Positions 60,533 to 64,000 of a stretch of DNA of 64,000 nucleotides are shown in pieces. Under the pieces are notes generated by a model that saw nothing but the letters and a program-made list of their open reading frames with translations, ran no database searches and was not told the origin of the DNA. Origin of the DNA: Georgenia satyanarayanai (GTDB lineage: Bacteria; Actinomycetota; Actinomycetes; Actinomycetales; Actinomycetaceae); the NCBI RefSeq assembly GCF_009193135.1, contig NZ_VUKC01000006.1:124001-188000 (forward strand), read 5' to 3'. Position 1 is the first letter of the stretch. Every line of letters starts with the position of its first letter. Position numbers and translations under genes: made by a program.

Positions 60533-62464
60533 TCAGGAGCGGGGGTCGGGCTCCACCGCACGGCCGAGGGGCTGCTCGGCCGTGGCCGGGAGGCCGGCGA
60601 CCGCACCGGCTGCCTGCCGGGCGACGTCCTGGGCCTGCAGGTGGTAGTGCTCGACCACCTGGGTCCGGGTGGCGTGGTCGAGGAACTCGTGGGGCAGGCC
60701 GTGGGTCTGCACGGGGACGGCGCGGCCGGCCTGCGCCAGGGCGTCGCGGACGGCGCTGCCGACCCCGCCCGTGCCCAGCCCGTCCTCGACGACGACGACG
60801 AGGTCGTGCTTCGCGGCCAGGTCCAGGAGGTCCTGGCTCACCGGGAGCACCCAGCGGGGGTCGACGACGGTCGAGCCGATGCCCTGCGCACCGAGCGCGG
60901 TAGCCGCGGCCATGGCGGTGTGCGCCATGACCCCGACGCCGACGAGGAGCACCCGGGGCCCGCCGTCGCCGGCGGTGCGGGCGAGGACGTCGACGTCGCC
61001 CTCGTGGCCGACCGCGGGCAGTGCCTCCGGCAGAGCGCCCTTGGGGTAGCGGACGACGGTCGGGGCGTCGTCGACGTCGACGGCCTCGCGCAGCTCGGCG
61101 CGCATCGTGTCCTCGTCGCGGGGCGCGGCCAGGCGCAGCCGCGGGACCGTGCGCAGCAGGGCGAGGTCCCACATGCCGTTGTGGCTGGCGCCGTCGTCGC
61201 CGGTGATGCCGGCGCGGTCCAGGACGATGGTGACGCCTGCGCGGTGCAGCGCGACGTCCATGAGGAGCTGGTCGTAGGCACGGTTGAGGAAGGTCGCGTA
61301 CAGCGCGACGACGGGGTGCAGGCCGGCGAACGCCATCCCCGCCGCGGAGGTGAGCGCGTGCTGCTCCGCGATGCCGACGTCGATGACGCGCTCGGGGAAC
61401 TCCTCGGCGAACGGCGCGAGCCCCACGGGGGCGAGCATCGCGGCGGTGACCGCGACGACGTCGCTGCGCCGGCGGGCGATCTCGACGATCTCCTCGGCGA
61501 ACACGGAGGTCCAGCCGAAGCGCGAGGGGGCGACCGGCAGGCCGGTCTCGGGGTGGATGACGCCGACGGCGTGGAAGCGGTCGGCGATGTCCTCCTCCGC
61601 GGGGGTGTACCCGCGGCCCTTCTCGGTGATGGCGTGGACGATGACGGGGCTGCCGAAGGCCTTGGCCCGGCGCAGGGCGAACTCCATGGCCGCGAGGTCG
61701 TGGCCGTCGACCGGCCCGATGTACTTCATGCCCAGGTCCTCGAACATGCCCTGGGGCGCGATGACGTCCTTGACGCCCTTCTTGAAGCCGTGAAGGGCGT
61801 CGTAGGTCATCCGCCCGGGCGGGCCGCTGCGCTGCAGCGCGCGCTTGCCCCAGCCGAGGACCTTCTCGTAGCCGCGCGCGGTGCGCAGCGCGTCGAGGTG
61901 GTGGGCGAAACCGCCGATCGTCGGGGCGTAGGAGCGGCCGTTGTCGTTGACGATGATGACGAGGCGGCGGTCCTGCGCCTCGGTGATGTTGTTGAGGGCC
62001 TCCCAGGCCATGCCCCCGGTGAGGGCGCCGTCGCCGATGACGGCGACGACGTGCCGGTCGCGCTGGCCGGTCAGCTCGTGGGCCCGGGCGATGCCGTCGG
62101 CCCAGGAGAGCGCGGTCGAGGCGTGGGAGTTCTCCACGATGTCGTGCTCGGACTCGCTGCGGCTCGGGTAGCCCGAGATGCCGCCGCGCTTGCGCAGGTC
62201 GGTGAAGTCCTGCCGCCCGGTGAGGAGCTTGTGGACGTAGGACTGGTGCCCGGTGTCGAAGACGACGCGGTCGCGCGGGGACTCGAAGACCCGGTGGATC
62301 GCCAGCGTGAGCTCGACGACCCCGAGGTTGGGCCCGAGGTGGCCGCCGGTCTTGGAGACCGAGTCGACGAGGTAGTCCCGCAGCTCCTTGGCCAGGACCT
62401 CGAGCTCGGGCCCGGTCAGGGAGTGCAGGTCAGCGGGCCTGCGGATGCGTCCGAGCAGACTCAT
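60533..62464 (-). CDS. dxs: 1-deoxy-D-xylulose-5-phosphate synthase
   Basis: A 643-residue thiamine-diphosphate enzyme: [38 protein letters not shown] (ThDP motif GDGALTGG), [58 protein letters not shown] and [24 protein letters not shown]. First step of the MEP isoprenoid pathway. GGAAGGGGAG lies before ATG 62464, and a -10-like TAGGGT (62504-62499) is 35 bases upstream. The 18-bp repeat array begins upstream of this promoter. Confidence 0.95.
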
Positions 62465-62538
62465 CGCTCCCCTTCCATCGGTGACAACACGCTGGTTCAC
62501 CCTACGACGCCGCGCCCCGCCACGCCCACTCCCCCGCC

Positions 62539-62736
62539 CACAGCCGACTTCCCGCCGACAGCCGACTTGTCGCCGACAGCCGACTTCCCGCCGACAGCCG
62601 ACTTGTCACCGACAGCCGACTTGTCGCCGAGCGCCGACTTCCCCCGGACAGCCGACTTGTCACCGACAGCCGACTTGTCACCGACAGCCGACTTGTCGCC
62701 GAGCGCCGACTTCCCCCGGACAGCCGACTCGCCGCG
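62539..62736. repeat. 18-bp tandem repeat array, 11 units (left array)
   Basis: Eleven consecutive 18-base units between dxs and the DinB-type gene. The consensus is GACAGCCGACTTGTCGCC; alternating variants end CCCGCC or CCCCCG, and unit starts are 62539, 62557, 62575, 62593, 62611, 62629, 62647, 62665, 62683, 62701 and 62719. The core GACTTGTC is partly palindromic. The repeat is a multiple of three, so all frames stay open, but no ribosome binding site supports a gene. The inverse array lies at 63435-63578. Confidence 0.85.
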
Positions 62737-62790
62737 AGAAGCCCCGACGACGGTGCACACGCCCCCTTCCGACGCGCCGCCGTCGGGCAC

Positions 62791-62815
62791 TACGGTGTGC
62801 GGAACGTCGCACACC
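62791..62815. promoter_or_regulatory. Promoter/operator of the DinB-type gene
   Basis: A TACGGT -10-like element (62791-62796) overlaps a perfect 8-bp inverted repeat GGTGTGCG-GAACGT-CGCACACC (62794-62815). It ends two bases before the AGGAGG ribosome binding site (62818-62823) of ATG 62831. A dimeric repressor bound here would block both the transcription start and the leader. Confidence 0.6.
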
Positions 62816-62830
62816 TCAGGAGGCGCACAG

Positions 62831-63430
62831 ATGCGAGGCGACTACGGCGCACCCGAGTTCGACTGGTCCATCCTCGAGGTGCCGACCCCAAAGGCGATGG
62901 CGCTCGGGCAGCTCGGCTTCTCGTGGCTCGAGCTGGCCGGCAGGCTCGCGACCGTGACCCAGGAGGAGTTCCTTCAGGAACCCCGACCCGGCGCGCTCAA
63001 CGTCGTGCATCGCGGGGCGGAACGGACGCCCCGCACGCTGGGGACCGGCGAGTGGGTGGCCGAGTGGCCCGAGGGCGCGGACGAGCCCGGACCACGAACG
63101 ATCGCCTGGCTCGTCGCCCACCTCACCGAGGCGTACCTCGAGCGGTGGGAATGGACCTTCGGTGAGCGTCAGCGGCGGCGGGAGGACGCCGTCGTCCACG
63201 GCGATGTCCACCTTGCCCGCGCGGAGCTGGCCAGCACGGTGGAGGCGTGGCGGGAAGGCGTCGAGTCGGTGCCCGACGACGAGTTCATGACCGTGGGCCT
63301 GAGCCAAGCGACCGAGATCGATGCGGCCGCGCCGTTCGGGCACCTCGTGCTCCACATGAACCGTGAACTCATCCACCACGGCTCGGAGATCTTCGTCCTC
63401 ACCGATCTGTACCGCACGGCAACGCCGTAG
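62831..63430 (+). CDS. DinB / mycothiol-dependent maleylpyruvate isomerase-like protein
   Basis: A 199-residue helical protein of the DinB-like superfamily. The metal triad is suggested by IAWLVAHLTEAYLERWEWTFGERQRRRED and HLVLHMNRELIHHGSEIFVLTDLY, with His residues in the first helix and in HMNRELIHHG. The start of the fold (TPKAMALGQLGFSWLELAGRLATVTQEEF) fits. Actinobacterial members use mycothiol or bacillithiol in thiol transfer or detoxification. AGGAGG precedes ATG 62831. It is flanked on both sides by inverted 18-bp repeat arrays. Confidence 0.75.
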   Translation: MRGDYGAPEFDWSILEVPTPKAMALGQLGFSWLELAGRLATVTQEEFLQEPRPGALNVVHRGAERTPRTLGTGEWVAEWPEGADEPGPRTIAWLVAHLTEAYLERWEWTFGERQRRREDAVVHGDVHLARAELASTVEAWREGVESVPDDEFMTVGLSQATEIDAAAPFGHLVLHMNRELIHHGSEIFVLTDLYRTATP

Positions 63431-63434
63431 CGGT

Positions 63435-63578
63435 CGACAAGTCGACTCTCGGCGACAAGTCGGCTGTCGGCGGGAACTCGACTCTCGGCGACAAGTCGGC
63501 TGTCGGCGGGAACTCGACTCTCGGCGACAAGTCGGCTGTCGGCGGGAAGGCGGCTGTCGGCGGGAAGTCGGCTGTCGG
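63435..63578. repeat. 18-bp tandem repeat array, 8 units (right array, inverted)
   Basis: Eight consecutive 18-base units (starts 63435, 63453, 63471, 63489, 63507, 63525, 63543, 63561) with consensus CGACAAGTCGGCTGTCGG and variants CGGGAACTCGACTCTCGG. The consensus is the reverse complement of the left array's unit in another register. Units alternate between two variants as in the left array. It lies between the stop of the DinB-type gene and the aconitase terminator. Confidence 0.85.
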
Positions 63579-63601
63579 CGGTAGGGCGGTGGAGGAAAAG
63601 G

Positions 63602-63634
63602 GGACGGGCCCCGGTCGGTGACCGGGGCCCGTCC
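63602..63634. terminator. Strong hairpin between DinB-type gene and aconitase
   Basis: A 15-bp perfect stem (GGACGGGCCCCGGTC at 63602-63616 with its complement at 63620-63634) and three-base loop between convergent genes; likely terminates both. A short A-run (63597-63600) on its left becomes a T-run for minus-strand transcripts. Confidence 0.8.
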
Positions 63635-63649
63635 GTCACTGCGGCTGTG

Positions 63650-64000
63650 TCAGGCGGCCTTTTCGACGAGGCTGCGCAGCACGTACTGGAGGATGCCGCC
63701 GTTGCGGAAGTAGTCCGCCTCGCCGGGGGTGTCGATGCGCAGGACGGCGTCGAACTCGACCGTCTCCCCACCCTCCTTCTCGGCGGTCACCTTGACCGTG
63801 CGGGGCGTGCGGCCCTCGTTGAGCTCGGTGACGCCCGCGACCGAGTAGGTCTCGGTGCCGTCCAGCCCCAGGGAGTCGGCGTTCTCGCCGGCCGGGAACT
63901 GGAGCGGCAGGACGCCCATGCCGATGAGGTTGGAGCGGTGGATCCGCTCGAAGCTCTCGGCGATGACGGCCTTGATGCCGAGGAGCGTGGTGCCCTTGGC
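63650..64000 (-). CDS. acn: Aconitate hydratase A, C-terminal end (5' beyond window)
   Basis: 117 residues of the C-terminal swivel domain are visible: [60 protein letters not shown], then [68 protein letters not shown] is the diagnostic AcnA segment with the substrate arginine. It isomerises citrate to isocitrate in the TCA cycle. The gene enters from beyond the right edge on the minus strand. Confidence 0.95.

Follow-up and report, generated by a model that had tools for sequence, protein, structure and literature searches.

The window analysed here, a 64,000-nucleotide stretch of Georgenia satyanarayanai DNA, contains a gene for a DinB_2-fold protein, located between dxs and the 3' part of a gene that we take to be acnA (aconitase). 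The Pfam hit denotes the metal-enzyme fold that is named DinB and is distinct from DNA polymerase IV. On both sides the gene is bordered by tandem arrays of an 18-bp unit (Table 1). The initial annotation counted eleven units upstream and eight downstream and described the two arrays as reverse complements of each other. Both points were borne out when the arrays were cut into 18-mers, the upstream one on the minus strand and the downstream one on the plus strand. Tandem Repeats Finder placed the upstream array at 62535-62729 (period 18, 10.8 copies) and offered two solutions for the downstream array, 63439-63581 with period 18 (7.9 copies) and 63442-63581 with period 36 (3.9 copies). The best ungapped match between the mutually inverted arrays is 124 of 144 nt. 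An alternation of two unit variants had been claimed for both arrays. It holds for approximately the first six units of the downstream array; upstream, the units follow no regular order, although a block of four is partially repeated. The core AAGTCGGCTGTCG, allowing up to two mismatches, occurs 19 times in the window compared to 2.97 ± 1.47 times in shuffled sequences, and 17 of these 19 matches fall within the two arrays. A chance origin of the arrays is hence excluded.

Table 1. Features of the DinB_2 locus (window coordinates) and three arrays located in reading frames elsewhere in the same genome (locus coordinates).
Feature	Position	Strand	Description
dxs, left neighbour	60533..62464	-	context
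Upstream array	62535..62732	-	11 units of 18 bp; commonest minus-strand unit ACAAGTCGGCTGTCGGCG and near variants
DinB_2-fold protein gene	62831..63430	+	199 aa; PF12867, E 8e-13
Downstream array	63437..63581	+	8 units of 18 bp, largely two variants alternating; starts 6 bp past the DinB_2 stop codon
G-rich stretch	63582..63606	+	GGCG side of the downstream array; G-richness on this side is a tendency seen across the family
acnA 3' part, right neighbour	63650..64000	-	939-aa frame in L063
In-frame array in MutM	L059:4542-4631		absent or other unit in relatives
In-frame array in TilS	L038:4583-4726		absent or other unit in relatives
In-frame array in SpoU rRNA methylase	L067:4876-4929		absent or other unit in relatives

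The unit turned out to be spread over the entire genome. The 3.44-Mb genome to which the window belongs (G000; the five other genomes of the genus are referred to as G001 to G005) contains 261 matches to the unit at up to two mismatches, compared to none for the reversed control. The same pattern has 26, 0, 2, 0 and 2 matches in G001 to G005, respectively. A relaxed exact core, ACAASTNNGCTGTCGGCG, occurs 64, 65, 9, 58 and 2 times in G000, G001, G002, G004 and G005, and is absent from the 57% complete genome G003. Genomes of other genera were probed with this relaxed core only, and none of the 145 sampled from the family outside the genus contained it. Overall, it is present in five of the 151 sampled family genomes and in one of 36 genera (the Georgenia/Oceanitalea group). 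The single-contig genome G005 has a variant of its own, AASTCSGCTSTCGYGC, with 671 matches at up to one mismatch (control 0), and twenty evenly spaced stretches of this chromosome (400 kb) hold 12 arrays and 63 units. A strand bias along the G005 chromosome, apparent among the matches listed, was rejected because the sampled stretches hold further minus-strand arrays. A scan of genome contigs with a strict two-unit pattern, which may omit the window's own and very near genomes, gave no matches. Carriage of the repeat by phages was also considered and rejected, as each of two pattern scans of viral contigs returned no match.

These counts bear directly on the earlier idea that the DinB gene and its arrays form one element. 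With units this abundant across the genome and at many other genes, that idea could not be upheld: the two arrays belong to a widespread, fast-changing repeat that is present in dozens of copies, so that the DinB gene itself is not special and is one of many array neighbours with no special role. The arrays are also only average in their mutual likeness, since 129 of 252 other pairs of long arrays match as well over 108 nt, and of the 55 other arrays in G000, 29 are as close to the upstream DinB array and 26 are as close to the downstream one. Hence, nothing suggests that the two arrays were selected together as a stem. We therefore find it quite unlikely that the gene and both arrays work together as one element, with recombination inverting the gene or a panhandle in the transcript regulating it, even though the arrays do pair with each other in the predicted fold of a 1047-nt transcript, as the initial annotation had anticipated, and even though arrays are found on both sides of the gene in G000 and G004, with weaker or degenerate units in G001 and G002.

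The DinB gene lies between dxs and acnA in five of the six genus genomes, i.e. in all that have the gene, and none of 51 outgroup loci outside the genus has dxs or acnA within the flanks examined (mostly 5 kb). Its orientation with respect to dxs and acnA is the same in G000, G001, G002 and G004 and reversed in G005 (L073:1383-2208). The predicted flipping of the gene is thus matched by an inversion, but no array was found at this locus in G005, where the gene persists between the same two neighbours. The inversion fits an array-mediated event without proving it, and the inverted gene without any array found beside it counts against a gene-specific element. The initial annotation had named both abundant units and a relative that has the gene but not the arrays as grounds for refutation, and both were observed. 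An array-flanked flavin reductase gene of G005 and an array-flanked phosphoribosyltransferase-like gene of G000 (presumably ComF-like, although Pfam returned nothing at 1e-5) have kept their orientation in five of five genomes, which is a weak test because, for either gene, the full pair of flanking arrays is present in a single genome and the others lack one or both. Orientation therefore differs at one of three array-flanked loci, that of DinB, with no array left in the differing genome. Some array (period 12-60, at least three copies) is present at 15 of the 51 outgroup DinB loci, and inspection by eye found the 18-bp unit in none of those arrays. In G004, a 47-bp repeat of a second variant, AGCGCCGAGCGCTGAGCTGTTG, adjoins the DinB gene (L070:1344-1487).

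The form of the repeat in the relatives is informative. The unit frequently makes up one side of a short palindrome, CGCCGASAGCTGAGTTGTT-loop-AACAACTCAGCTSTCGGCG, in G001, G002 and G004; this palindrome is 43-52 bp long and lies near the 3' ends of genes. G000 mostly contains amplified single arms. In eight hand-picked hairpins, two of which (L162 and L171) represent one site in two species, stem pairs 7, 8, 15 and 20 vary on both sides, and mismatches occur at pair 7 in two, at pair 17 in one and at pair 20, next to the loop, in four. In G001 and G004, arms located less than 60 bp from each other show a greater likeness than random array pairs do (five pairs with 0 of 500 nulls as low and four pairs with 8 of 500, respectively); G002 had one such pair and G005 none. 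The two close pairs of G000 do not differ from random ones in this respect (244 of 500 nulls as low), which means that pairing of the arms is not preserved in this genome. No compensatory change was seen within one 18-bp unit of G000 either (spacer/arm bases C/G 97, G/G 41, C/C 35 and G/C 9). Folding of three hairpins gave z-scores of -8.0 to -9.6, compared to -10.2 and -4.0 for the two strands of a one-orientation array of G000, and -5.6 for the downstream array of the window. The 25 nt beyond the GGCG end of the repeat are 57-60% G in all five species, compared to 35-42% before the ACAAG end.

We consider it probable that the arrays belong to a genus-restricted family of REP-like hairpin repeats, the arms of which have turned into minisatellites. 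As the sequences show, its basic element is the hairpin described above, which lies mostly just past stop codons and is overrepresented in convergent gaps. Tandem duplication of the unit in the window's species and in G005 has produced 18-bp minisatellites, several of them at sites where relatives have one unit. Local copying, by slippage or unequal exchange, would make the arrays, and exchange between sites would keep the units of one species alike, as their species-specific character suggests. Where transcribed, a hairpin or a one-orientation array is predicted to fold strongly, and its probable effect would therefore be on transcription ends or the stability of mRNA 3' ends. The lack of arm likeness in the close pairs of G000 is a point against the REP-like reading.

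The placement of the element relative to genes was analysed in five genomes, with genes from a home-made caller and at loci most of which were picked for holding the unit. Gaps with the element comprise 43 convergent, 57 tandem and 10 divergent ones, compared to 146, 877 and 178 gaps without it. Convergent gaps are enriched (odds ratio 4.6, p 1.5e-11; divergent gaps, p 0.12), although orthologous sites are counted once per genome, which makes these p-values too small. In 50 of the 57 tandem gaps, the element is nearer to the 3' end of the preceding gene (median distance 28 bp vs 93 bp). Its orientation shows no significant bias relative to transcription, either in tandem gaps (27 vs 22, p 0.57) or in genes (14 vs 6, p 0.12), which speaks against the REP-like reading.

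The same sites were also compared between genomes. The 169 sites yielded 177 site-by-genome comparisons in which both flanks were present in the other genome's DNA. In G000 and G005, the units have been amplified into 18-bp arrays, several of them where relatives hold one unit, and many sites are common to genomes with different copy numbers: the L036 site has 3, 2, 1 and 1 units in G000, G001, G002 and G004, and the L058/L169 site has three units vs one. Empty counterparts were found for L038 (in four genomes), L047/L215 and L049/L194. The units themselves differ by species. The dinucleotide following AAST is CG in 90% of cases in G000, CA in 81% in G004, CA in 38% and GC in 29% in G001, and CG in 73% and CC in 25% in G005. 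Sixteen orthologous array comparisons, which were hand-picked, were measured against the distances within each genome. Nine of them are farther apart than both within-genome medians (7 of 7 against G005 and 2 of 9 against G001); the other seven all involve G001, which has a mixture of units. Between G000 and G005 this looks like concerted evolution of the arrays, a conclusion that does not extend clearly to G001. A share of only 9 in 16 weakens the REP-like reading. Dispersed tandem repeats in a high-GC actinobacterium are also represented by the MIRU/VNTR minisatellites of mycobacteria, which the Georgenia arrays resemble in this respect. Unlike MIRU/VNTR, however, the Georgenia unit goes back to one arm of a hairpin and commonly occurs in inverted pairs.

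Tandem arrays of one species-specific unit on either strand might also be expected if a reverse transcriptase added templated units at DNA breaks in the manner of telomerase. We regard such an origin as most improbable, because the RVT_1 domain was found in one of the six genus genomes (G002) and in neither G000 nor G005, and because several sites are common to different species, one of which carries a single unit there, and thus point to amplification in place. A reverse transcriptase origin was rejected on the basis of this domain distribution. The single RVT_1 match in G002 is at L192 (G002:C109:188320-188709).

The occurrence of one core in species-specific variants, its inverted pairs close to the ends of genes and the presence of the unit in the genome-maintenance gene mutM would also be in line with a system resembling DNA uptake sequences, in which the unit would mark DNA of the own species and spread by natural transformation, with species dialects. 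Two papers on uptake sequences describe such dialects (PMC3630211) and a bias in orientation and towards the ends of genes (PMC2346458). An over-represented core with species dialects is indeed present in Georgenia, and so are inverted pairs at gene ends. Unlike uptake sequences, however, the Georgenia unit forms tandem arrays, so that its copies number in the hundreds and cluster at some tens of sites instead of being scattered in their thousands, and this makes such a system improbable.

A literature search, which covered few subscription journals, found no description of this repeat family or of the exact architecture, in agreement with the initial annotation, whose author knew of no named element of this kind. 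REP elements nevertheless share many of its habits. As outlined in one paper (PMC3733652), these are short hairpin repeats, often species-specific, which lie downstream of genes and between convergent genes, occur as inverted pairs or dimers and are sometimes found inside genes, including DNA-repair genes. The Georgenia family resembles REP elements and their dimers, as they are portrayed there, in all of these points: a palindromic stem-loop unit (in G001, G002 and G004), extragenic placement downstream of genes and in convergent gaps, inverted pairs, and copies in genes that include repair genes. It also differs from them. Half-hairpin arms have been multiplied into tandem arrays of 18-bp period, the members of an inverted pair can be separated by as much as 1.4 kb, enclosing whole genes and keeping a fixed polarity, and the genus appears to lack the REP-kind transposase, RAYT: its Y1_Tnp domain was found in none of the six genus genomes, while the same search was positive in 5 of 14 controls. 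We have therefore rejected mobility by a RAYT, and its absence also counts against the REP-like reading. The eight hairpins, inspected by eye, also carry neither of the terminal tags of REP elements, GTAG and CGTC. The close relatives present a series from a single unit and a hairpin to a long minisatellite, partly at the same sites and with species-specific units. The genus thus provides a natural test of how a REP-like repeat spreads, is amplified and is homogenised where no RAYT is found, and of how far in-frame repeats are tolerated in conserved enzymes.

The relative orientation of neighbouring arrays follows a short-range pattern. Of the 44 pairs of opposite-strand neighbour clusters within 1.5 kb of each other, 42 have the polarity (-,+). 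The pattern holds for all 16 pairs that are at least 300 bp apart, which represent 13 distinct loci after removal of three orthologous duplicates (L161 with L063, L187 with L044 and L177 with L223). The initial annotation had proposed a search of the genome and its relatives for other flanked genes; such genes do recur, and all 13 pairs with a called gene between them, from 11 distinct loci, are (-,+). The two exceptions (L187 and L198) are less than 20 bp apart, and the (-,+) pairs span 7 bp to 1.4 kb. Same-strand neighbours closer than 1.5 kb number six, a figure that is low by construction at short range because units of the same strand within 100 bp were merged. No polarity bias was found at 1.5-20 kb (++ 4, +- 3, -+ 1, -- 4). 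Thus, within 1.5 kb, the arrangement is almost always [CGCCGACAGC..]n gene [..GCTGTCGGCG]n. This short-range polarity is a quantitative fact that any mechanism must explain, and the REP-like reading leaves its long-range part unexplained.

In six genome-by-distance groups of at least two pairs each, pairs at least 60 bp apart are not significantly more alike than random (339, 186, 269, 497, 463 and 270 of 500 nulls as low), and in a seventh, G001 at 300-1500 bp (three pairs), 58 of 500 nulls are as low. As distant pairs are not more alike and the DinB pair is average, selection for such a stem is not seen. Tentatively, the polarity might arise from snap-back template switching at the replication fork, the second array being an inverted copy of the first, or from a protein that binds the arrays as paired oriented anchors. 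The length of Okazaki fragments is comparable to the range over which array pairs are polarised. In snap-back copying, the choice of strand could perhaps be set by the G-rich tail. If true, this would give bacteria a route to build large inverted repeats around genes and occasionally to flip these genes.

The polarity of pairs over these distances would also be in keeping with a true transposable element, one that ends in inverted arrays to which its transposase binds and that in some cases carries a gene along, and the absence of dxs and acnA beside the outgroup DinB genes would suit such cargo. We nevertheless think this unlikely. The flavin reductase and ComF-like genes keep the same neighbour in relatives that are missing one or both arrays, the flanked genes that were identified (DinB and those at L032, L050, L196 and L207) are not transposases, and Y1_Tnp, the one transposase family searched, was not found.

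Arrays also occur within coding sequences. In G000, they sit in frame within 12 predicted genes, and Pfam recognises all eight of the proteins that were scanned, including Fapy-DNA glycosylase (MutM), TilS and a SpoU methylase. Where G000 has its MutM array, arrays of their own units are present in G001, G003 and G005, and a short remnant in G002 and G004. The TilS site has arrays in G000 and G003 and none in G001, G002, G004 and G005. At the SpoU methylase site, arrays are present in G000, G001 and G002 and absent from G005, and the G004 gene is split there across two contigs. The arrays are read in several frames (ADSRLV, PTADLS, TSRLSA and others), so what spreads among genes seems to be the DNA and not a peptide. 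In these predicted genes, the arrays are evidently tolerated in frame inside protein segments because 18 is a multiple of three. Rickettsia palindromic elements are likewise described, in the same paper (PMC3733652), as repeats inserted into the reading frames of conserved genes. The Georgenia repeat is similar to them in being a nucleic-acid repeat within such frames, and differs from them in forming 18-bp arrays and in using several reading frames.

A search of five loci against Rfam gave no match above the gathering score at the repeat. Two further features were noted in the course of the analysis. A SAM riboswitch (RF00162, 46.9 bits), unrelated to the repeats, is located at L183:3124-3209 in G001. 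In G000, Tandem Repeats Finder reported a C-rich low-complexity tract of about 100 bp (L241:3345-3453) downstream of a gene that presumably encodes HPF.
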